Of a stretch of DNA of 36,619 bases, positions 2,745 through 23,095 are shown piece by piece. This DNA comes from Pseudonocardiales bacterium (GTDB lineage Bacteria > Actinomycetota > Actinomycetes > Mycobacteriales > Jatrophihabitantaceae). The stretch lies in contig JAVEET010000181.1 in assembly GCA_030840295.1 (NCBI GenBank), positions 1 through 36,619 on the forward strand, written 5' to 3'. How positions within the stretch are numbered: position 1 is the stretch's first letter; each line of letters opens with the position of its first letter. The notes under the pieces were generated by a model that saw only the letters and a program-made list of their open reading frames with translations, was not told where the DNA came from and made no database searches. Both the position numbers and the translations under genes were made by a program.

Positions 2745-3437
2745 CTAACTGCCCGCACGAGCTGTCGTCGCCAACCTCATGGCGCCGCTTGCGAGTTGAG
2801 CGAGTCCCGACCAGTCCTCGTCGGCGACGAGGGAGGGGTCGACCATCCAGCTCCCACCCACCGCCAGAACCTCCGGTCTGGAGAGATACCCGGGCAGCAG
2901 CGCCGGGGTTATCCCACCGGTGGGAATGAACCGGATCGTGGGAAAGGGTGCATTCAAGGCACGGATGGTTGCCATACCACCCAGCTGCTCGGCGGGAAAG
3001 AACTTCAAGATCTCCAGCTGTTCATCGATGGCGGCCATCACGTCGGTCGCAGTAGCGATGCCGGGAAAGATGGGAATCGCCAATTCCCGGCAGCGCTCGA
3101 CGAGGCGGCGATCGAATCCAGGCGTCACCACGAAGCGTGCGCCCGCAGCGACGGCGTCATCGATCTGCGCGACCGACACCACGGTTCCGGCACCGACCAC
3201 GAGCCCGGTGCCCTCAGCGATGTTCTCGATCGCGGCGAGGGCTGAAGGCGTTCTGAGGGTGATCTCGATAGCCGTCAGACCGCTTGCGGCCAGCGTATTC
3301 GCTAGCGGCCTGGCGTGCCTGGCATCGTGCACGACGGTCACCGGAAGCACCGGACACGCTGTCAGAGCCTCGATGATCTGCTGCGCGGCACGTTCGGCCG
3401 CGGGCATCGTTGGCTGCCCCGAGTCCGCGGCACTCAA
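2745..3437 (-). CDS. eda: 2-dehydro-3-deoxyphosphogluconate (KDPG/KHG) aldolase
   Basis: A class I aldolase of the KDPG/KHG family with a (beta/alpha)8 barrel, cleaving 2-keto-3-deoxy-6-phosphogluconate to pyruvate and glyceraldehyde 3-phosphate. The family signatures are all visible: VLPVTVVHD near the N-terminus, EITLRT with the general acid/base Glu, VGAGTV, the ILKFFPAE strand with the Schiff-base Lys, PTGGI and AVGGSWM for phosphate binding. The TTG start at 3437 overlaps the ManD stop as TTGA (230 residues). An ATG at 3407 would give 220 residues, closer to the usual family length of about 210, and is a good alternative. It completes the route from the dehydratases of the locus together with the KDG kinase at 30849-31838, which lies in another transcription unit. 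Confidence 0.93.
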
Positions 3438-4639
3438 TAGTTGCCCACGCTTCCGTCCTCGCGTCGGGAAATGGGCAGGTAGGCGCGCTCGTACTCGAAG
3501 CGTGCGGCGGCCTTCTCATCGATGTCCACACCGATTCCCGGCCGGTCGCCAGGCACCAGAAAGCCATCCTTGAGACCCCAGTCCCAGTCGAAGACGTCCG
3601 ACGCCTCCTCCGGGTGGACGTTGTACTCCTGTACAGCCGCGTTGTACGTCGCGACGCCGAAGTGCACTGCGGCGCCCATCGTGACCGGAGAAAGGTCAGC
3701 TGCTCCGTGACATCCGGTGCGAACTCCGTACGGTTCGGCGAAGGCGGCGATCTTGCGCAAGTGTGAGATTCCGCCGGCGTGCACGATCGAAGCCCTGATG
3801 TAGTCGATCAACTGCTCTCGGATCAGCTGCTCGCAGTCGAAGAGGGTGTTGAAAACCTCGCCCACCGCCAGTGGTGTGGTGGTGTGTTGCCGGATCACCC
3901 GGTAGGACGCCTGGAGTTCGGCCGGCACTGTGTCCTCCAGCCACAGCAACTGGTGATCCTCCAGCCTCTTGCCGAGCCAGCCCGCCTGGCTCGGCGTGAG
4001 TCGGTGGTGCGCGTCGTGCAGCAGGGCCACATCGAAGCCGACCGCCGCACGGACCCGGTCGAACATCTTCGGCGCGAATCGAAGGTACTTCTCTGTCGAC
4101 CAACCCTGCTCGACGTAGGGCAGTCCGATGCCCGTTCGACCCGCACCGGCCCGTGGTATCCCGTACATTTCTTCCAGGCCTGGGACCAGGCACTGCACCC
4201 GGACCGCTTTGTAGCCCTCGGCGGTGTAGCGCTGCACCTGCTCGATCACGTCTTCCAGTGATCGCGAACTGGCGTGGGCGTAGCACATGATCCCGTCGCG
4301 GGACCGCCCACCGAGCAGGTTCCACACCGGAGTGTCCAGTGCCTTGCCCTTGATATCCCATAGGGCCACGTCCACCGCGGCAATCGCGGCCATCGTGACC
4401 GGCCCGCGGCGCCAATAGGCCCCACGGTAGAAAAGTTGCCAGGTGTCCTCGATGTCCCGGGCGTCCCGGCCGATCAGCATCGGGCACAGGTGGTCCTGCA
4501 AATAGGACGCGACCGCGAGTTCCCGGCCGTTCAGAGTGCCGTCGCCGATCCCGTAGATACCCTCGTCCGTCTCGATCTTCAGGGTGACGTAGTTGCGGCC
4601 CGGGCTGGTGACAATGACTCGGGCGCCGGTGATCTTCAT
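3434..4639 (-). CDS. manD: ManD/RspA-type sugar-acid dehydratase (D-mannonate dehydratase, enolase superfamily)
   Basis: A 401-residue enolase-superfamily protein that matches the ManD/RspA subgroup from [20 protein letters not shown] to the C-terminal EDGSVGNY. Metal-ligand positions are visible as DAHH (Asp, with the catalytic His two residues on), WLEDTVPAE (Glu) and AVGEVFNT (Glu); the [22 protein letters not shown] stretch and the RAYLPIS end are also typical. ManD enzymes dehydrate D-mannonate (some D-gluconate) to 2-keto-3-deoxygluconate, with a wide range of efficiencies. The ATG at 4639 follows a GGAAGGAAC ribosome-binding site; the longer upstream open frame is an artefact. It lies between the uronate-dehydrogenase-like gene and the KDPG aldolase, consistent with uronate or aldonate catabolism. 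Confidence 0.9.
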
Positions 4640-4691
4640 ACGTGCGGTTCCTTCCCATTCTGAGGTGGTGCGGAGCAGCTGGCGGAGGAGC

Positions 4692-6829: not shown

Positions 6830-7900
6830 TCAAGCCTTCGACGGACGCATCCCGAGGAGACGGGCCGGATTGTCGCGCAGCAGCACCGAACTCAGCTCGG
6901 GACCGATCCGGTCGATGAGCCTAGGCAAGAATCGCTCGGGTAGATAAGCCAATCCGGGAATACCTCCATAGCCTATGTATCGGCTTCGGCGAGCCACGTC
7001 GCCACCCAACACCACACGGTCGGCCCGCCCGCCGGCTACGACCAGCCCGATACAGTCCAGTAAGGCTGAGTCCGGGGCTGACCGATGCCGGGCCATACCG
7101 TCGTAACCGAGATAGCAGCCTTGTGACGCCAGCTCGAGATGTAGGCCCGGATCGGGGTTGCGGTCGACGTGGGCCAGCACGATCCGATCGGCTGACAGGC
7201 CGTGTTCGGTCAGCCGTTGCAGCACCTCGAAGGCCGCCGAGCAGAATTCCAGGTGCACCATGACCGCCGCGCCGGTCAACGCCGCCGTCACCGCAACCGC
7301 GGTAAGAACCCGGCCCTCGAACGGGCTGATCCGCCAGTAGCCTATGCCGGCCTTGAGGGCCCCGGCGCGGATCGGATTGCCATCCGGATCACGAGCATGG
7401 GCGGGCTCTCCGAGGGCATACGGACGTTGCCGCGCTGCCTGAGCTTCCGGCACTGGCGCCGACCGCGACGTGGACACCACCGTCCGGTCCGTAGCCCGGT
7501 CCGTGTCCCGTACGGTCATTCCGTCCTGCACCTCGGCGCGGAACCGCGCAACCAAGGCCTGCTCGCTCTCGCCAAGGATCCAATGCCCGTCGGCATAGTG
7601 CTCCTGCCGGTGCGCGCCGGTCACGTGCACCACCTGCAGGCCGGTGGCGGCACTGATCCTTGCCACGGCCTCGGGATTGCGGCCAAGTCCGATCGGGGTC
7701 GCCTCCACCAGAGCCCGGATGCCGGCCGAGCGCAGCAGGGCGGCTTCGACCCCGCTGGCCTCCGGGTCATCGAGCTCATCGCCAGCCAGCAGCGGCGACG
7801 CCTGGAAGAGGTGTTCGTGGTAGTCGCACGCGCCGAGATCGTCGGCCGGGATGTCGCCCAGCACCGTCCGGACCGCGCCTGGCGCCGCGGGCCCGGTCAT
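6830..7900 (-). CDS. Phosphotriesterase-family metal-dependent hydrolase (putative sugar lactonase)
   Basis: A 356-residue amidohydrolase-superfamily protein of the phosphotriesterase/PLL branch. The HxH metal pair sits at residues 28 and 30 (DYHEHLF); later come a KAGIGYW lysine in the position of the bridging carboxylated Lys, VMVHLEF (His), LAHVDRNPD (His and Asp) and GGDVARRSRY (catalytic Asp). Family members hydrolyse lactones, phosphorylated sugar lactones or phosphotriesters. Between the conserved N-terminal half and the lysine there is an unusually long polar Arg/Ala/Asp-rich segment. The ATG at 7900 overlaps the kinase stop as ATGA; the longer upstream frame is a shadow of the kinase gene. 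It is the last gene of unit A, where a sugar- or sugar-phosphate-lactone is the most likely substrate. Confidence 0.75.
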   Translation of the reverse strand: MTGPAAPGAVRTVLGDIPADDLGACDYHEHLFQASPLLAGDELDDPEASGVEAALLRSAGIRALVEATPIGLGRNPEAVARISAATGLQVVHVTGAHRQEHYADGHWILGESEQALVARFRAEVQDGMTVRDTDRATDRTVVSTSRSAPVPEAQAARQRPYALGEPAHARDPDGNPIRAGALKAGIGYWRISPFEGRVLTAVAVTAALTGAAVMVHLEFCSAAFEVLQRLTEHGLSADRIVLAHVDRNPDPGLHLELASQGCYLGYDGMARHRSAPDSALLDCIGLVVAGGRADRVVLGGDVARRSRYIGYGGIPGLAYLPERFLPRLIDRIGPELSSVLLRDNPARLLGMRPSKA

Positions 7901-12012: not shown

Positions 12013-13032
12013 GTACCAGGCTTGAGCTCTTGGGGTGCTGTGAACGCAACGACGTCGGTGACCCTCGACGGAACAGCAGGAGCTCGTTCGTTCGTGCCCG
12101 CCCGGGTTCGGACCATGTACTTCATCGGTGTGAGCACTGGACGATCCTCGGTTCGGTCCGTCTTCCCCCGCTGGGCGGCGGCGCTAGGCCTGGCCGATGC
12201 CACCCTGGTCGGGATCGATCTGCCGGTGCATGCCGATCCGTCGCATTACCGGCAGGTGACCGACTTCATCGCTGACGATCCGCTGAGCCTCGGTGCGCTC
12301 ATCACGACCCACAAGATCGACTTGTATGCCGCGGCGTCCGACCGGTTCGACGTTGTCGACCCGCTGGCCGAGTTGATGGGCGAGGTGAGCTGCCTATCCA
12401 AACGCGATGGGGCGCTGATCGCGCATGCCAAGGACCCGATCTCGTCCGGGCATGCCCTGGACGCCTTCCTGCCGCCCGGTTACTGGCGGGATCGGCCTGC
12501 CGCAGCCGCGTGCCTGATCGGTGCGGGTGGCTCAGCCATCGCTATCAGTTGGTACCTGAGCCGTCCGGAGCGTGGGACCGATCGACCTGGACAACTCGTC
12601 ATCACTAATCGGAGCCGCGCTCGACTGGAGCACGTGCAGTCCGTGCACGAGCGGCTGGCCACCGAGGTACCCATCCGCTACGAGCTCGCTCCGAGCCGAG
12701 CGGACAACGATGCGATCGTGCGCGATCTGGCAGCGGGATCGCTGGTGGTCAACGCGACCGGATTGGGCAAGGACGCGCCGGGTTCACCGATCAGCCCGGG
12801 TGCCCGCTTTCCGGAGAGGGGAATCGCCTGGGACCTCAACTACCGCGGCGAGCTGGTGTTTCTCGATCAGGCGCGCAGCGCGGTGGCCGCCCAACGGCTC
12901 CAGGTCGAGGACGGCTGGATCTATTTCGTGCACGGCTGGATTCAGGCCATTGCCGAGGTATTCGACATCGAGATCGCGACTGCCGGCGCCGCATTCGAGG
13001 ACTTGGCCACGATTGCGGCTGGTTGCCGATGA
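11986..13032 (+). CDS. Shikimate dehydrogenase (AroE/YdiB) family protein
   Basis: A protein of about 348 residues from the GTG at 11986, or 305 from the ATG at 12115, where the typical MYFIGVSTG opening begins. It has the AroE-like substrate domain with ALITTHK, where Lys is the expected catalytic residue, and AHAKDPISSG, where Asp is its partner. The Rossmann part follows with CLIGAGGSAIAI, ITNRSRARLEH as the cofactor-specificity loop, and SLVVNATGLGKDAPGSP. AroE enzymes reduce 3-dehydroshikimate; this divergent branch is common in catabolic clusters and often acts on other polyol-like acids. GTG 11986 overlaps the preceding stop as GTGA, and its stop overlaps the next ATG as ATGA. The real start is uncertain because of the GTG repeats. 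A biosynthetic role is unlikely. Confidence 0.78.
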   Translation: MNAVNAVNAVPGLSSWGAVNATTSVTLDGTAGARSFVPARVRTMYFIGVSTGRSSVRSVFPRWAAALGLADATLVGIDLPVHADPSHYRQVTDFIADDPLSLGALITTHKIDLYAAASDRFDVVDPLAELMGEVSCLSKRDGALIAHAKDPISSGHALDAFLPPGYWRDRPAAAACLIGAGGSAIAISWYLSRPERGTDRPGQLVITNRSRARLEHVQSVHERLATEVPIRYELAPSRADNDAIVRDLAAGSLVVNATGLGKDAPGSPISPGARFPERGIAWDLNYRGELVFLDQARSAVAAQRLQVEDGWIYFVHGWIQAIAEVFDIEIATAGAAFEDLATIAAGCR

Positions 13033-15959: not shown

Positions 15960-17219
15960 ATGACTGCCTACCTCGCCGGACGTGCTCCGGATACCGGCGG
16001 CCGGCCCTGGTATGAGCTCAGCACGCACCATCGTTGGCTCGCGGTCGAGGCCGAACGCCTCCTCGACTTCGGCAAGAACTCCGCCGTCCCAGGCGGCTTC
16101 GGGTGGCTGGACGACGGCGGCATGGTGATGGCGGATCGGGGTGTTCAGTCCTGGATCACGACCCGGATGACCTATGCCTTTTCGTTGGCGGCGCTTTGGG
16201 GACGGCCCGGTGCGGCCGACCTTGCCCGGCACGGCCTCGAAGCGTTGCAAACCACGTTGCACGACGATGTACACGGTGGCTGGTTCTCGATCGTGTCCGC
16301 GGGCGAGGTGCTCGACGACCGCAAGAAGGCCTACGAACACGCCTTCGTGGTGCTGGCCGCTTCTGCCGCCACCATCGCCGGGCTCTCCGGAGCGCGAGAG
16401 GTGCTGACCGAGGCGCTCGAGGTCATCGACAGGCATTTCTGGTCGCGCACGGACGGCCTGGCCGCCGACCTCTACGACCGAAGCTTCACCGTGCTCGACT
16501 CCTACCGAGGCGCGAACGCCAACATGCACCTGACGGAGGCGTACCTTGCTGCCGCCGACGCCACCGGTGACGAGGTGTACACCGAGCGCGCCCTGTCGAT
16601 CGCAGAACAGCTCATCAACGGACATGCCCAGGAGCACGACTGGCGGCTGCCCGAGCACTACACCGACTCGTGGCAACCGGTGCTGGAGCACCACCGGGAC
16701 CAGCCTCGCCACCCGTACCAGCCGTTCGGGGTGACGCCAGGACATCTGCTGGAATGGTCTCGGCTGTTGATCTGCCTGCACACCTCTCTGACGGTGGCGC
16801 CTGCCTGGTTGCTGAACCACGCGGTACAGCTGTTCGAACGCGGCGTCGGCGATGGGTGGGACGGCAACCTCGGCGGCCTGCGCTACACCGTCGACTTCGC
16901 TGGGAAGACTTCCGTCGCAGACCGTCTGCACTGGGTGGCGGCCGAGGGCATCGGAGCGGCCGGGACGCTGTCCAGCCTGTTCGGTGACCCCGGCTACGAG
17001 CGGTGGTACCGGCAGCTCTGGGACTGGTCCGAGACCCATCTAATCGATCGAGATCGCGGCAGCTGGTTGCACGAGCTGGACGAGGCCGGCCGGCCCAGCC
17101 AGCTCACCTGGCCGGGAAAGCCGGATGTCTACCACGCGCTGCAGGCGACCCTGGTGGCCCGGCTACCCGCGGTGTCCAGCTTCGCCCGCGGTATCGCCGA
17201 CGGGCAGCTGCGGGCATGA
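15960..17219 (+). CDS. AGE family sugar isomerase, YihS/mannose-isomerase type
   Basis: A 419-residue (alpha/alpha)6-barrel protein of the N-acylglucosamine 2-epimerase superfamily. Compared from memory with Escherichia coli YihS, it aligns through almost its full length: LSTHHRWLAVEAERLLDFGK, the GGFGWLDDGG turn, WITTRMTYAFSLAA (Arg), RGANANMHLTEAYL (Asn and His), FGVTPGHLLEWSRLL (His and Glu) and KPDVYHALQA (His). These are the positions of substrate-binding and catalytic residues in YihS and D-mannose isomerases. YihS isomerises sulfoquinovose and also mannose; D-mannose and D-lyxose isomerases are relatives. No sulfosugar-specific neighbour is seen, so mannose- or glucose-type aldose/ketose isomerisation is the safer reading. 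The ATG lies two bases after the previous stop. Confidence 0.85.
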   Translation: MTAYLAGRAPDTGGRPWYELSTHHRWLAVEAERLLDFGKNSAVPGGFGWLDDGGMVMADRGVQSWITTRMTYAFSLAALWGRPGAADLARHGLEALQTTLHDDVHGGWFSIVSAGEVLDDRKKAYEHAFVVLAASAATIAGLSGAREVLTEALEVIDRHFWSRTDGLAADLYDRSFTVLDSYRGANANMHLTEAYLAAADATGDEVYTERALSIAEQLINGHAQEHDWRLPEHYTDSWQPVLEHHRDQPRHPYQPFGVTPGHLLEWSRLLICLHTSLTVAPAWLLNHAVQLFERGVGDGWDGNLGGLRYTVDFAGKTSVADRLHWVAAEGIGAAGTLSSLFGDPGYERWYRQLWDWSETHLIDRDRGSWLHELDEAGRPSQLTWPGKPDVYHALQATLVARLPAVSSFARGIADGQLRA

Positions 17220-17244
17220 CGAAGCCGCAGCGGGTGACGCAGCG

Positions 17245-19398
17245 TTGCTGACCGGGCCGCAGCGGTTGACGCTCATTGCGATCTTGAACCGGCTGATCCC
17301 GGCAGATCGGTTTCCCGCTGTGTCCGAACTCGGTGCGGTGGCGTTCGTGGAGGCGCGGCTGGCGAGTAGCCATACCGCGGCCGCACCGGGGGTGCTCGCG
17401 TTCCTGACCGAGCTTGAGCAGCCAACGCCGGACGGGGCCACGGACATTGCATTCACGACCGCGACCGCGTCCGAGCAGGATGCCTGGCTCGCACGGGCAT
17501 TTGCCGATCGGGCACCCGCCGCCGAGTCGGCCGCCGGCGGTGCGCTCGCGGGTGCTTCGGTGACAGCGCCGTTGTCGATACTGATGGAGCTGGCGGCGCA
17601 GTGTTGGCTGGGCCAACCGCACTCAGGAGCCGGCGACCGATCGCCCTGGTCGATGATCGGGTTCCGGCCGGAGCCCGACGGCATGGTCTGGCCGGATACG
17701 CCGGTGTCGATGCCCGCCATCGGCTGGAGTGAGGTGGCCGACGCCTACGATGCCGTGGTCATCGGCAGCGGCCCAGGTGGTGCGACTGCGGCTCAGGTGC
17801 TCTGCACCGCAGGGTGGCGGGTGCTGGTGGTCGAACGTGGCGAGTGGCTCGGCGCCGGTGATCTACCTGCGGACCATCTACGCAACGACCGCAGTGCTAC
17901 CGGTTTGCTGCCGCCCACCTCGCCGGAATCCAGCGGCGATCCGCGGGTGCTGTCGGCGGGATCGACCAAGCGCGTCGTGTATCCCGAAGAAGCCGTGCTC
18001 TGGCACCGCAACCCGATGACAGTCGGCGGCGGCAGCCGGGTGTACGGGGCACAAGCGTGGCGGTTCAGTCCTTCGGACTTCCGGATGGCCAGCCGGTACG
18101 GTGTGCCCGCGGGGAGTGCGCTCGCGGACTGGCCCATCGACTACGACGAGCTCGAGCCGTACTACAGCAGCGCCGAGAGTCTTCTCGGCGTGGCCGGCGG
18201 CGAGGGCACCGGCGGTGGCCCCGGTGCCGAGGGTCGACGGGGCTGCCCCTTTCCGATGCCACCAACGCCGGATTCTCCGCTCGCACCGCTGTTGCGTGGT
18301 GGCGCCGAGGTACTGGGCTTCGGTACCGGGCCGGTGCCGCTGGCGGTGAACACGGTGCCATACGCAGGCCGACCAGCATGCCTTCGTTGTGGCTCGTGCG
18401 TCGGTTTCGGATGTCCCGGAGACATGAAGAACGGCAGCCACAACACAACCCTCACGTTGGCGCTGCGGACCGGACGCTGCGACCTGCTGCTGGCAACCCA
18501 GGTCGGTCGCATCACGGTGAACTCCGCCAGCCGCGCGGACGGCGTGTTGCTGCTCCACCAAGGAGCCGGCGGCGTCGAGCGACGGACGATCCGCGCGCGC
18601 TTCATCCTGGTCGGTGCCGGTGCTGTCGAATCGGCACGGTTGCTGCTCAACAGCGCCCACGACGCCGAGCCGCACGGCCTGGGCAATGACGAGGACATGG
18701 TCGGGCGGCACCTGCAGGGCCACGTTTACTCCGGCGGCCTGGGGCTGTTCGACGAGGATGTGCAGGACTCTCGAGGCCCGGGATCGTGCCTGGCGACCAG
18801 CTGGTTCCGGCACGGCAACCCGGGCGTCGTCGGCGGCGGCGTGTTGGCCAACGATTTCGTGCCCACGCCACTCAATGCCTGGAATCTGCTTCGCAACCAC
18901 GCGATGATCGATAAGTGGGGTCTCGGCACGAAGACCGGGCTGGCCCGAAACTACCGGCGAATGGCGTTGGTCCTCGGCGCGACGCAGGAGGTCACCTCGG
19001 CCTCGTCCCGGGTGTCGGTGGCCAACGAGGTGACCGACCGGCTCGGCCTGCCGGTAGCCCGGCTCAGCGGCGGCCTGCATCCGGCAGATCTCCACACGGC
19101 GGCCTTTCTGTCCGAGCAGGCGGTGCGTTGGTTGCAGGCCAGCGGGGCGAGGTCGACCACGTCGATGTACCTCTACCCGTCTGTCGGGCCGAGCGGGTTC
19201 CAGCACCAGGCGGGCACCTGCCGAATGGGTGAGGACCCACGCCGCTCGGTCACGGACCGGTGGGGACGACTCTGGTCGCAGCCCAATGTCGTGATCGTCG
19301 ACGGGTCGACCCACGTGACCAATGGCAGCGTCAACCCGATGCTGACGATCTTCGCCAACTCGCTGCGGATCGCCGATCACCTGCTGGCAGCGGGCTGA
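17245..19398 (+). CDS. Fusion of gluconate 2-dehydrogenase subunit 3 domain with GMC oxidoreductase
   Basis: A protein of about 717 residues combining what are normally two subunits. Residues 1-130 look like gluconate 2-dehydrogenase subunit 3 (PF13618): TGPQRLTLIAILNRLIPAD at the start and CWLGQPHSG...SPWSMIGFRP at the end. A GMC flavoprotein follows, with the FAD motif VVIGSGPGGATAAQVL near 170, VGGGSRVYGAQAWRF, a CLRCGSCVGFGC cysteine cluster near 378, and the catalytic pair HQAGTCRMG (His near 652) and GSVNPMLTIFA (Asn near 695). Such enzymes oxidise sugars, passing electrons to a cytochrome or another acceptor. The start is unclear: TTG 17245 is chosen, 25 bases after the AGE stop. ATG 17125 is in frame but deep inside the preceding gene, and ATG 17216 is out of frame. 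No signal peptide or cytochrome subunit is seen. Confidence 0.82.
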   Translation: MLTGPQRLTLIAILNRLIPADRFPAVSELGAVAFVEARLASSHTAAAPGVLAFLTELEQPTPDGATDIAFTTATASEQDAWLARAFADRAPAAESAAGGALAGASVTAPLSILMELAAQCWLGQPHSGAGDRSPWSMIGFRPEPDGMVWPDTPVSMPAIGWSEVADAYDAVVIGSGPGGATAAQVLCTAGWRVLVVERGEWLGAGDLPADHLRNDRSATGLLPPTSPESSGDPRVLSAGSTKRVVYPEEAVLWHRNPMTVGGGSRVYGAQAWRFSPSDFRMASRYGVPAGSALADWPIDYDELEPYYSSAESLLGVAGGEGTGGGPGAEGRRGCPFPMPPTPDSPLAPLLRGGAEVLGFGTGPVPLAVNTVPYAGRPACLRCGSCVGFGCPGDMKNGSHNTTLTLALRTGRCDLLLATQVGRITVNSASRADGVLLLHQGAGGVERRTIRARFILVGAGAVESARLLLNSAHDAEPHGLGNDEDMVGRHLQGHVYSGGLGLFDEDVQDSRGPGSCLATSWFRHGNPGVVGGGVLANDFVPTPLNAWNLLRNHAMIDKWGLGTKTGLARNYRRMALVLGATQEVTSASSRVSVANEVTDRLGLPVARLSGGLHPADLHTAAFLSEQAVRWLQASGARSTTSMYLYPSVGPSGFQHQAGTCRMGEDPRRSVTDRWGRLWSQPNVVIVDGSTHVTNGSVNPMLTIFANSLRIADHLLAAG

Positions 19399-19469
19399 CC
19401 GGCGGCTGCGGCCGTGCGGGCCAGGTGAGCGCCGGCTCAAGCCCGCAACGGCCGGCCCAGTCGATGGGC

Positions 19470-19936
19470 TGGCGCCTGGCGAACTCATGCCGGCGCGACC
19501 GGCCACGGTAGGCAGGCGTCGGAAGTTCTCGACGTAGTACGCCCTCGTGGCCAGGTGCTCGCAAAGCAGACAGCGTCCGGAGCAGCTCAAAAGAAGCTCG
19601 ATGAGGTCCGCGCTGCGGTAGAACCAATCGAAGGTCACCATATTTGCCAGATCGAAATGTACTTCGACCCGCGGATCGTCGACCGGGTCCAGGAAGTCGG
19701 CCACCGCTTCGCGGGCCGTAGAAGAAGCTGTTGCGCCACGGTTCGATCAGGTAGCGGCACCGGCCGTCGAAGCTGTCCACGATCGGCAGCACTACCTAGC
19801 GGAACTCGCAGTCGGTCATGTCCGGCGTCATCGGCGGGGCCGGAATGGCCTAGAGCCCGTGATCGTCCAGCACTGGGCACAGCCTGATCAGCTCCTCCAC
19901 CGTGCCGACCGTCATACCGTAGCCACCCCGATGCAC
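19470..19936 (-). pseudogene. Decayed sugar phosphate isomerase/epimerase (AP-endonuclease-2-like TIM barrel)
   Basis: Joining frames on the minus strand recovers pieces of a xylose-isomerase-like TIM-barrel protein: GYGMTVGTVEELI at the start, then LIEPWRNSFFYGP, then EAVADFLDP and VEVHFDLANMVTFDW, which recall the metal-site strands of the family (Glu, and Asp in HxDxxN). Two in-frame TAG codons interrupt it (19850-19852 and 19796-19798), and the frame changes near 19708-19716. The C-terminal half with the last metal ligands is missing. It directly follows the cupin gene in unit D, so it was probably once the last gene of that operon. No intact copy exists in the window. Confidence 0.7.
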
Positions 19937-19945
19937 GGCAGCGAC

Positions 19946-20455
19946 TCAGCAGACGAACTGGTCGACGAATCCGCCGCCCAGGCCGACCGATTCGTAGTGC
20001 TCCCGGCACATGTCGATCTTGGTGTAAACATCCTCGTAACCGATCTGCTGTCCCCCGTCGTCGAGGTAGATCATCGCGCCGGTGATGTTGAAGAACGTGA
20101 TCATCTCCGCGCAGCCCTCGGGGACTGCGAGGGTGTGAATCTCACCAGGCGGTTCGTAGACGAAATGACCGGTCTCGGCCATCCATGGGTGTTCGTAGTA
20201 ATGCCATCGTCCCGAGATGACATAACCGAACACGGCACCGGGATGGCGATGCCGCGAGATCACCCCGGTCCGTCGCACTCGCAGCAGGTTGAGCCACTGC
20301 CCGACCACGGTGTTGAACAGCAACGGACGGAACTCCACGCCGGGAGCCTGTGGCACCCACACCCGCTCGTCCTCGGGGACCGCGGCCAGGGCGACTTCGG
20401 CTCGGAGCATGACGGTGGGAGTGATCGGCGGCGCTGCGCGTTGGGACCTGGTCAT
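19946..20455 (-). CDS. Cupin protein of the 2,4'-dihydroxyacetophenone dioxygenase-like family
   Basis: A 169-residue single-domain cupin. The pattern WVPQAPGVEFRPLLFNTVVGQWLNLLRV, HRHPGAVFGYVISGRWHYYEH, and FVYEPPGEIHTLAVPE closely follows the 2,4'-dihydroxyacetophenone dioxygenase / acetylacetone-cleaving family. Likely Fe(II) ligands are the two His in HRHPG, the Glu in EPPGE and the following His. Family members cleave carbon-carbon bonds beside keto groups using oxygen. The end, YTKIDMCREHYESVGLGGGFVDQFV, is also conserved in the family. The ATG at 20455 has a GGAAAGGAAG site. In unit D no aromatic substrate is expected, so it may act on a diketo or hydroxy-keto sugar-derived intermediate, or be regulatory; this is not known. 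Confidence 0.78.
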   Translation of the reverse strand: MTRSQRAAPPITPTVMLRAEVALAAVPEDERVWVPQAPGVEFRPLLFNTVVGQWLNLLRVRRTGVISRHRHPGAVFGYVISGRWHYYEHPWMAETGHFVYEPPGEIHTLAVPEGCAEMITFFNITGAMIYLDDGGQQIGYEDVYTKIDMCREHYESVGLGGGFVDQFVC

Positions 20456-20480
20456 TGCACACTTCCTTTCCTCGGGTCGG

Positions 20481-20506
20481 GCTTCCTCAGGCGGCTTCCT
20501 CAGGCG
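20481..20506. repeat. 13-bp perfect tandem duplication at the SDR/cupin junction
   Basis: GCTTCCTCAGGCG occurs twice in a row. On the minus strand the repeat carries the TGA stop of the SDR gene, so the stop codon region is duplicated, leaving a spare in-frame copy just downstream. It lies immediately before the ribosome-binding site of the cupin gene. Confidence 0.85.
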
Positions 20507-21255
20507 GCTAGGTACCCACCGTCGACCGGAAGTACCGCTCCGGTCACGAAACCGGCGGCCGGCGAGGCCAAAAACGTCACCACCCGGGCCACGTCGTCCG
20601 GCGTACCCCAGCGGTTCATCGGGGTCCGGCCGAGCAACTCTGCCGAACGAGCGGTCGAGGCCGTGAGTTCATCGGTCAGCTTCGTCCGGATCCAGCCAGG
20701 CGCCACTGCGTTGACCCGGATTCCCTCACCGGCGAAAGCGATTGCGAGCGACTTGGTCAACTGGCCCACGCCGCCCTTGCTGGCCGCATACGCCGGTACC
20801 CGGCCGCCGCCGAAGAAGCTCAGCATCGATGCGGTGTTCACGATGCAGCCACCGGATCGGGCCAGTCCCGGTCGGGCCAGTACGCAGGTACGCATCGTTG
20901 CGGTCAGGTTTGTGTCGAGCACCCGGCTGAACGTTTCAAGCTCGAATTCTTGATCTCGGACGACGATGCCGGCGCAGTTCACCAGGATGTCGACCGTTGG
21001 CACGGAGCTGAAGAGGCTCTCCACCTGATCAGCATCCGTCGCGTCCAGCTCCACCATGTGCACGCAGCCGGTCGGCGTTGCAGCCCGGTCGGCGTCCAGG
21101 CCCGCGGCAACCACCGAGGCACCGAGCCGTGCCAGGTGGCCGGCGACGGCAAGGCCGATGCCCGACGTCGCACCAACCACCACTGCGGTCCGACCAGCGA
21201 ACAGCCCACTGGCGAAGGTCCTTTCCGGCGGATCGCTCGGGTCACGGCCGGTCAT
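20500..21255 (-). CDS. SDR family oxidoreductase (2-deoxy-gluconate/3-oxoacyl reductase-like)
   Basis: A 251-residue classical SDR. The cofactor motif is VVGATSGIGLAVA, followed by LVNCAGI, the catalytic Ser in NTASMLSFFG, the YAASK motif, VNAVAPGWIRTKLTD and GAVLPVDGGYLAA. It is expected to be NAD(P)-dependent and cytoplasmic. The ATG at 21255 overlaps the stop of the uronate-dehydrogenase-like gene as ATGA. In hexuronate loci SDRs of this kind serve as fructuronate/mannonate oxidoreductases or KduD-type 2-keto-3-deoxygluconate oxidoreductases. Placement two genes after UxuA makes such a role reasonable, though the substrate is not shown by the sequence. Confidence 0.85.
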   Translation of the reverse strand: MTGRDPSDPPERTFASGLFAGRTAVVVGATSGIGLAVAGHLARLGASVVAAGLDADRAATPTGCVHMVELDATDADQVESLFSSVPTVDILVNCAGIVVRDQEFELETFSRVLDTNLTATMRTCVLARPGLARSGGCIVNTASMLSFFGGGRVPAYAASKGGVGQLTKSLAIAFAGEGIRVNAVAPGWIRTKLTDELTASTARSAELLGRTPMNRWGTPDDVARVVTFLASPAAGFVTGAVLPVDGGYLAA

Positions 21256-22073
21256 GGCGCCGACCAGTTCAGGAGCTTCTCGGCCTTGCTGGTGTCGAAG
21301 AACGAACCGTGTCCGTCGAGTTCACGCTTGACTGGCACGTCCGGATAGAACCGGTTCCGCAGCTGCATCGACGTGATCTCGCTCGTCGTGTCAGAGGCGA
21401 CAACGTAGAATGTCTCGAACCCGTTGAAATCAGCGGTCACCGCGGCAAGGCAGGCCTGCGCGGCGGAATCGACTGGGGTATAGCCCCACAGGTCCTTGTG
21501 GCCGGCCTCGGGGCGGCCGACGACCAAGGCAGCCATGTAGGCCCGATCACGCAGTGCGTGCAGCCGCAGGCTGGCGATACTCATCCGCTCGTACCTTCGT
21601 CCGAAGGCCGCTGCCTGCTGCTCGGCGATCCACTTTGACAGGCTGTAGGGGTCCTCGGCGTAGCAGCGATGGTGCTCGTCCAGGGGAAAGTAGTCGTAGC
21701 GAGGTTCGCGGCTGTAATACCCGCCGATGGCGTTGACGCTGGACGCCAGGCAGACCCGGTCGATACCGTGTGCCGCCGCCACACTGAGGGCGTTATAGCT
21801 GGCGACCACGTTGTTGTTGTGAACGACATGGTCTGCACCGGCCTCCGGTGTGATGTAGGCGGCCAGATGGACCAAAGCATCAGCGTCTGCGACCGCCGCG
21901 TTGAACTGCCCGAAGTCGGTGAGGTCGGCCCGCCGTTCCTCCAGCCCGGGACGGTCTGGCGGCTCAGTCGTCGCCGCACGGTCGATGGCCAGCACCGTGT
22001 GTCCGGACGACAGCGCCAAGTCGGAAACCGCGCGCCCCAGTACACCGCAGGCACCAGTGACCGCGATCCTCAT
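21252..22073 (-). CDS. NAD(P)-dependent epimerase/dehydratase family protein, uronate-dehydrogenase-like (second copy)
   Basis: A 273-residue extended SDR. The cofactor motif GACGVLG begins at residue 7, SSVNAIGGYYS holds the catalytic Ser, and YSLSK the Tyr and Lys. It is a paralogue of the protein at 4692-5549, with shared [20 protein letters not shown] and TADF(S/N)G blocks but many differences elsewhere, so the duplication is not recent. The ATG at 22073 overlaps the UxuA stop as ATGA; the longer upstream open frame is a shadow. Uronate dehydrogenase would make an aldaro- or uronolactone from a hexuronate. Being next to UxuA rather than ManD, it may use a different stereoisomer than its paralogue. 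Confidence 0.77.
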   Translation of the reverse strand: MRIAVTGACGVLGRAVSDLALSSGHTVLAIDRAATTEPPDRPGLEERRADLTDFGQFNAAVADADALVHLAAYITPEAGADHVVHNNNVVASYNALSVAAAHGIDRVCLASSVNAIGGYYSREPRYDYFPLDEHHRCYAEDPYSLSKWIAEQQAAAFGRRYERMSIASLRLHALRDRAYMAALVVGRPEAGHKDLWGYTPVDSAAQACLAAVTADFNGFETFYVVASDTTSEITSMQLRNRFYPDVPVKRELDGHGSFFDTSKAEKLLNWSAP

Positions 22074-23095
22074 CGGTCGACCACCGTACCGGTTCGGCCA
22101 GCCGCCACGATCTCGTCGTGGTGGACGGCCTCCTGCAGCCCACGGATGTAGCCGACCGCGAAAAGCCTGCCCAGGATGGCGTACCCCGGACGCTCGTTGG
22201 CCTCCCCCGCGAGCGTGGGCACGTGGTCGGGCCGTAGCACGCCGTGGAAGTCCACCTCGCGGTACGCGTTCAGGCACTCCCACAGATCGGTCGGGCCATC
22301 ATCGTGCCAGGTCTCCTGAAAGTTCTGCACCGTTCCCCGAACATCGCGAAAGTGCACGAAGAAGACCTTCTGCTGCTCACCGAAGTGCCGGATGGTCTTG
22401 GGCAGGTCGTCGGTCATCAGCCGGAAATTGCCTTGGCACAAGGTTATTCCGTTCATCGGGCTAGGCACGAGGTCGATGAGGCGCTGATAGTTCTCGACGC
22501 TGCTCATGATCCGCGCGACACCGCGGATCGGGGACAACGGCGGGTCGTCGGGGTGCATCGCGAGCTGCACGCCGACCCGTTCTGCCACCGGCACGATCCG
22601 CTGCAGGAAGTACTCCAGCGACGCCCACAGGGTGTCCCCGGACACCGCTCCGAACTCCGTCGGCGGTGCATCCGCCAACAGTGACTCGTCGAATCCGCTC
22701 ACCAGTGACCCGCCCCGGTCGCGGATACCGGTACTGGTGCGGACCCAGTTGAAATCGGCCATCCATTCGTAGCACCAGGTCTTGATGCCCAACCGGCCCA
22801 TGTTCTCCAGCAGTTCGACCACGGTGTCGATCTCGGCATCCCGTCCCGGCAGACCCCGCTTGGTCAGGTTCAGCGGTGGCCGGGCCTCGATCACAGCGAG
22901 AGAGAAGCCACTGCGCTCGTACTGTTGCTTGAGCCTCAGCATCGGCATGAACTCCCATGGATACTTCTCCCCGGCCACCAGCGAGTGCGGTGGGTAGAAG
23001 CTACCGACGGCGTACCTGACGCCGGCCTGCTCCATCAACCGCCACAGCTCGGTGGCCGCCATATCGGGCGGCAGCACCTCGGCAATCTTGATCAC
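22070..23095 (-). CDS. uxuA: Mannonate dehydratase, UxuA family
   Basis: A 341-residue TIM-barrel dehydratase of the UxuA family, unrelated to the ManD enzyme encoded in unit B. The metal-binding segment MHPDDPPLSPIRGVARI, the NGITLCQGNFRLM strand, VHFRDVRGTVQNFQETWHDDG, and VLRPDHVP are all typical. UxuA converts D-mannonate to 2-keto-3-deoxygluconate using Fe(II) or Mn(II). Length is slightly below that of the Escherichia coli enzyme (394). The GTG at 23095 has an AGGAGG ribosome-binding site. The product would be phosphorylated by the KDG kinase of this locus and split by the KDPG aldolase. Confidence 0.9.
   Translation of the reverse strand: MIKIAEVLPPDMAATELWRLMEQAGVRYAVGSFYPPHSLVAGEKYPWEFMPMLRLKQQYERSGFSLAVIEARPPLNLTKRGLPGRDAEIDTVVELLENMGRLGIKTWCYEWMADFNWVRTSTGIRDRGGSLVSGFDESLLADAPPTEFGAVSGDTLWASLEYFLQRIVPVAERVGVQLAMHPDDPPLSPIRGVARIMSSVENYQRLIDLVPSPMNGITLCQGNFRLMTDDLPKTIRHFGEQQKVFFVHFRDVRGTVQNFQETWHDDGPTDLWECLNAYREVDFHGVLRPDHVPTLAGEANERPGYAILGRLFAVGYIRGLQEAVHHDEIVAAGRTGTVVDR

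Follow-up and report, generated by a model that had tools for sequence, protein, structure and literature searches.

We found that a short minus-strand sequence at the end of a catabolic gene cluster of a Pseudonocardiales bacterium has the signature of a coding region that is broken by two stop codons and a frame change. It is probably a pseudogene that retains the middle portion of a xylose-isomerase-like TIM-barrel gene (AP_endonuc_2 superfamily; database name "sugar phosphate isomerase/epimerase") that would once have stood after the SDR and cupin genes of a sugar-catabolism cluster. The analysed stretch of 36,619 nucleotides (the window) makes up the entire contig C336; the draft genome has 4.65 Mb in 375 contigs. 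The remnant can be read as protein on its minus strand from ~19930 to 19490, between the stop codons of the cupin gene and of a convergent GMC gene (Table 1). We regard it as a case of real, ordinary gene decay that is weakly classified.

Table 1. The remnant, its parts and the two genes on either side of it (window coordinates)
Feature	Position	Strand	Description
5' part of the remnant, frame a	19712-19930	-	In-frame TAG at 19852-19850 and 19798-19796
3' part of the remnant, frame b	19490-19711	-	One-base shift near 19711; coding signal fading at 19540-19490
Central block across the frame change	19624-19744	-	Sole part with detectable AP_endonuc_2 similarity (Pfam profile positions 120-165)
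Cupin, open upstream neighbour	19946-20455	-	Cupin_7; 2,4'-dihydroxyacetophenone dioxygenase family; same strand and frame as the remnant
Fused Gluconate_2-dh3 and GMC oxidoreductase, open convergent neighbour	17206-19398	+	Pfam

Frame a of the remnant is the cupin gene's own frame, in which a candidate ATG start (19915-19913) is found shortly past the cupin stop. Both stop codons and the one-base shift that the original prediction had described are present in the sequence. To score codon usage, a table was trained on 27 of the 28 listed gene stretches of the window, with the cupin gene held out and 3437-4658 left out (out of frame with the coordinates used), and the controls were 500 dinucleotide shuffles, each taken at the best of three frames. 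Frame a scored 30.3 against a shuffle maximum of 8.4, and frame b scored 24.5 for 19488-19712 (shuffle maximum 10.9) and 17.7 for 19540-19713 (shuffle maximum 11.6). The held-out cupin gene reached 61.4 and the tail at 19400-19487 gave no signal in the same test. G+C at the three codon positions was 0.61/0.44/0.90 and 0.68/0.41/0.76 in the two parts of the remnant versus 0.66/0.44/0.80 for the cupin next to it. Both measures, the codon scores and the codon-position G+C, change frame once, near 19711, and together they make a coding past of the stretch, with a frame change at that point, well supported. The extent first proposed, 19470-19936, was about right, with the signal fading between about 19540 and 19490. 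The gene had also been called recently decayed: the codon data bear out the decay; as for the recency, the codon bias is still sharp but about half of the gene is missing.

The assignment to a family is weaker. Compared with Pfam at E ≤0.1, the read-through matched AP_endonuc_2 and nothing else (E 0.011, in the centre only), and the core piece alone matched this family at E 0.0069. Each of these matches extends across the frame change, and with the 3' half by itself E was 0.24. At 15.9 and 16.5 bits the matches of the read-through and the core stay under the curated cut-off of the family (PF01261, 31.1 bits). No Pfam match was obtained for the first piece, and the last piece had only a match at chance level, with the unrelated family Herpes_env (E 0.17). 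When the whole stretch was read in a single frame, in two ways of which one contains the true 3' half, Pfam gave nothing up to E 10; NCBIfam gave nothing for the read-through (E ≤0.1). The remnant may be placed, weakly and by its central block, in AP_endonuc_2. The likeness proposed at the outset pointed in the right direction (E 0.007-0.011 for the core), but it is below the cut-off and confined to that block.

The remnant was also compared with a profile built from ten real isomerase-like proteins from plasmids (275-304 residues). These relatives had been found with a typed query designed with the remnant's motif in mind, so the comparison was not blind and lends support without being an independent test. 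The Pfam match does not depend on this choice. The profile scored 11.1 bits against the remnant, whereas the best of 2000 shuffles reached 4.0. Taken in blocks, with strand numbers that are our reading of the alignment and not a computed structure, the strand 5-6 block scored 15.0 bits against the core piece (shuffle maximum 3.6, n=1000). The ends behaved differently: the score of the first piece against the N-terminal block was reached by 169 of 1000 shuffles, and that of the last piece against the C-terminal block by 344 of 1000. A reading of the last piece as C-terminal strand 8 with strand 7 deleted found no support in this block comparison and was dropped. Unexpectedly, the first piece scored 7.2 bits against the core block, a value reached by none of 1000 shuffles, and a simple collinear remnant does not explain this. 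A complete eight-stranded barrel is not present in these ~147 residues, whose end pieces did not rise above shuffles against the N-terminal, strand-7 and C-terminal blocks.

In single comparisons with 22 superfamily proteins, 20 did not exceed all 200 shuffles and two did, both from Rhizobium, with scores of 46 and 47 against shuffle maxima of 38 and 37. These nearest of the tested proteins, annotated as sugar phosphate isomerase/epimerase, are WP_094087864.1 of R. leguminosarum, in which the core block aligns over 19 residues only, and WP_207603372.1 of R. bangladeshense, in which some 40 residues align. They share with the remnant core the motif D-x-P-x4-H-x-D-x-A-N-M-V. Unlike the remnant, both are intact (290 and 292 residues), and their gene neighbourhood differs from that described here.

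No search returned an intact orthologue, with sensitivity limited for a decayed query of about 147 residues. The read-through found only itself in 101 genomes (its own and 100 relatives, at the reduced sensitivity of such a query) and in 397 genomes of the order, its own included. On plasmids it had no relative; a search with just the core, run to E 10, hit three places (E 2-6). Pattern matches for the remnant numbered two in viral contigs and 57 in a collection of 84,980 species; none was confirmed. A search without positive control in 39 genomes of the family that holds the nearest in-phylum cupin gave no relative. An intact orthologue at the same position had been proposed as a check, and none was seen: eight other genomes of the genus (63-99% complete) have no counterpart of 19400-22000 apart from pieces no longer than 170 bases in six of them. 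The two blocks named as strongly conserved are both present, at 19744-19712 and 19659-19624 on the minus strand, but patterns made from them found no other isomerase. A degenerate pattern from parts of both hit only this site among 296 genomes (its own included), a similar one matched seven times across the 84,980 species, never at a place that reads as an isomerase, a looser one had 14 places in 61 genomes, none an isomerase, and a further scan for block parts had zero matches.

Given a Pfam score under the cut-off, no NCBIfam match, no close relative in any search and ends that do not fit the AP_endonuc_2 end blocks, the stretch could be a real pseudogene of another family whose core resembles AP_endonuc_2 by chance. 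We consider this unlikely, as the core scores above every shuffle against real relatives and the Pfam match runs across the frame change. We keep to the isomerase-like pseudogene. A somewhat speculative reading, improbable to a similar degree, takes the remnant as the sole trace yet seen of an unsampled AP_endonuc_2 subfamily. Its members would have acted on a sugar or sugar acid together with an SDR and a ChrR-like cupin, and the strain would have acquired the operon.

Such a gene, intact and downstream of the SDR and cupin genes, would have decayed through nonsense and indel changes together with deletions. With ~147 residues against 275-304 in the ten intact relatives, the remnant has near half their length, so point errors alone would be inadequate to account for it. 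The remnant could presumably not yield a functional barrel, since past the core there is no strand-7 or strand-8 match and the part preceding the core has too few residues for strands 1 to 4. The same shortfall makes it quite improbable that an assembly or sequencing error has disrupted an intact gene, as the missing length would also have to be an error and the 29 other window genes that were examined each lie in a single open frame; a draft genome in 375 contigs, and the clustering of both stops and the shift within ~145 bases, would be compatible with such an error. Pfam matches were found for 27 of these 29 genes (all nine at E ≤0.1 and 18 of 20 at E ≤1e-8), the genes at 1877-2758 and 12073-13029 having none at E ≤1e-8. 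In the phosphotriesterase-family gene at 6833-7897, the best Pfam stretch covers residues 172-348 of 355 (profile positions 118-297), and the first half is outside it. TAG terminates one of the 29 listed genes and is thus used as a stop here, if rarely. Recoding, with TAG read as an amino acid and a programmed shift, was rejected by judgement, since three separate events would be needed in one short stretch. It is highly improbable that the stretch is no gene but intergenic DNA, read by chance, between the two convergent genes: in the frames claimed, the codon-usage score of each part lies above all 500 shuffles. The weak similarity and the long non-gene ORFs overlapping the site on both strands might speak for such a chance reading.

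The cupin next to the pseudogene is 58-69% identical to alpha- and betaproteobacterial proteins in the best 20 of 137 plasmid records, and most annotated rows among these 20 carry the name 2,4'-dihydroxyacetophenone dioxygenase family. In two annotated plasmid regions examined, an SDR gene directly adjoins the cupin, as it does here. Among 396 genomes of the phylum there was no cupin match (E up to 1e-15) in the same order or class except in this genome. Horizontal transfer of the cupin gene is likely.

The gene on the other side encodes, in one frame, a fusion of a Gluconate 2-dehydrogenase subunit 3 domain with a GMC oxidoreductase domain. Plasmids of Deinococcus aetherius and of two Paenibacillus species carry homologues that align over 97% of its length at 44-47% identity. 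A general pairing of such a GMC gene with such an isomerase was not upheld: annotated isomerases stand beside only one of five homologue loci. At that locus, in D. aetherius, two annotated isomerase genes are adjacent and neither resembles the remnant. A second locus (L053) has no isomerase annotated within 9 kb, and at the other three (L054-L056) none of the 20 ORFs scanned, out of 70 of at least 230 residues, matched AP_endonuc_2. Since the ten-member profile detects just one of this Deinococcus pair, its failure to match elsewhere carries little weight.

By Pfam, the cluster contains UxuA, enolase-superfamily proteins, a KDPG/KHG aldolase, a lactonase, two epimerase-family proteins and a PfkB kinase. 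Two paralogues of the NAD-dependent epimerase/dehydratase family on the same contig (4692-5549 and 21252-22073) are 74% identical over 203 bases, and the AGE-type epimerase at 15960-17219 scores 437 bits against the NCBIfam D-mannose isomerase model, under its cut-off of 600. The UxuA mannonate dehydratase (22070-23095) belongs to the remnant's superfamily by Pfam, but its open frame of 341 residues has no detectable similarity to the remnant (score 32 against a shuffle maximum of 46). Besides the remnant, the genome has 11 AP_endonuc_2 matches, ten of them over the cut-off and two in one reading frame, which makes ten loci; this UxuA is one of them. The suggestion that the strain has lost part of the original pathway is not borne out with ten other loci in the genome, one of them in this cluster.

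The decayed gene had further been linked to chemistry carried out with Gfo/Idh/MocA or GMC proteins. CarC, a keto-glycoside enzyme of this kind, presumably has the AP_endonuc_2 fold. No sequence link to the remnant was seen for it or for the other keto-glycoside eliminases and hydratases AtOGE, AtHYD and PsCGD_C1/C2: a PDB sequence search with this short, decayed query returned two unrelated chains (E 0.27 and 1) and, up to E 10, no isomerase and no C-glycoside deglycosidase alpha subunit of the CarC/DgpC type. Likewise, no CarB-type beta subunit was named in Pfam scans of the 29 window genes and the remnant (small ORFs left out; 20 genes at E ≤1e-8 only). The general chemistry is in print, while nothing ties the remnant to those enzymes. 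One Agrobacterium operon encodes the putative sugar phosphate isomerases/epimerases AtOGE (O-glycoside eliminase) and AtHYD (likely a hydratase) with a Gfo oxidoreductase (PMC10628242), and the CarC homologues PsCGD_C1/C2 are encoded downstream of a GMC glycoside 3-oxidase, with CarB- and CarC-like genes there (PMC10646112).

Because the cluster is rich in genes of the uronate and sugar-acid type, an aldonate or uronate route would be as likely as a glycoside route. Dead genes can occur in catabolic clusters, so gene order by itself is not a sound basis for inferring a pathway. An intact relative, if found beside the same cupin and SDR genes, would be a candidate enzyme for the pathway.
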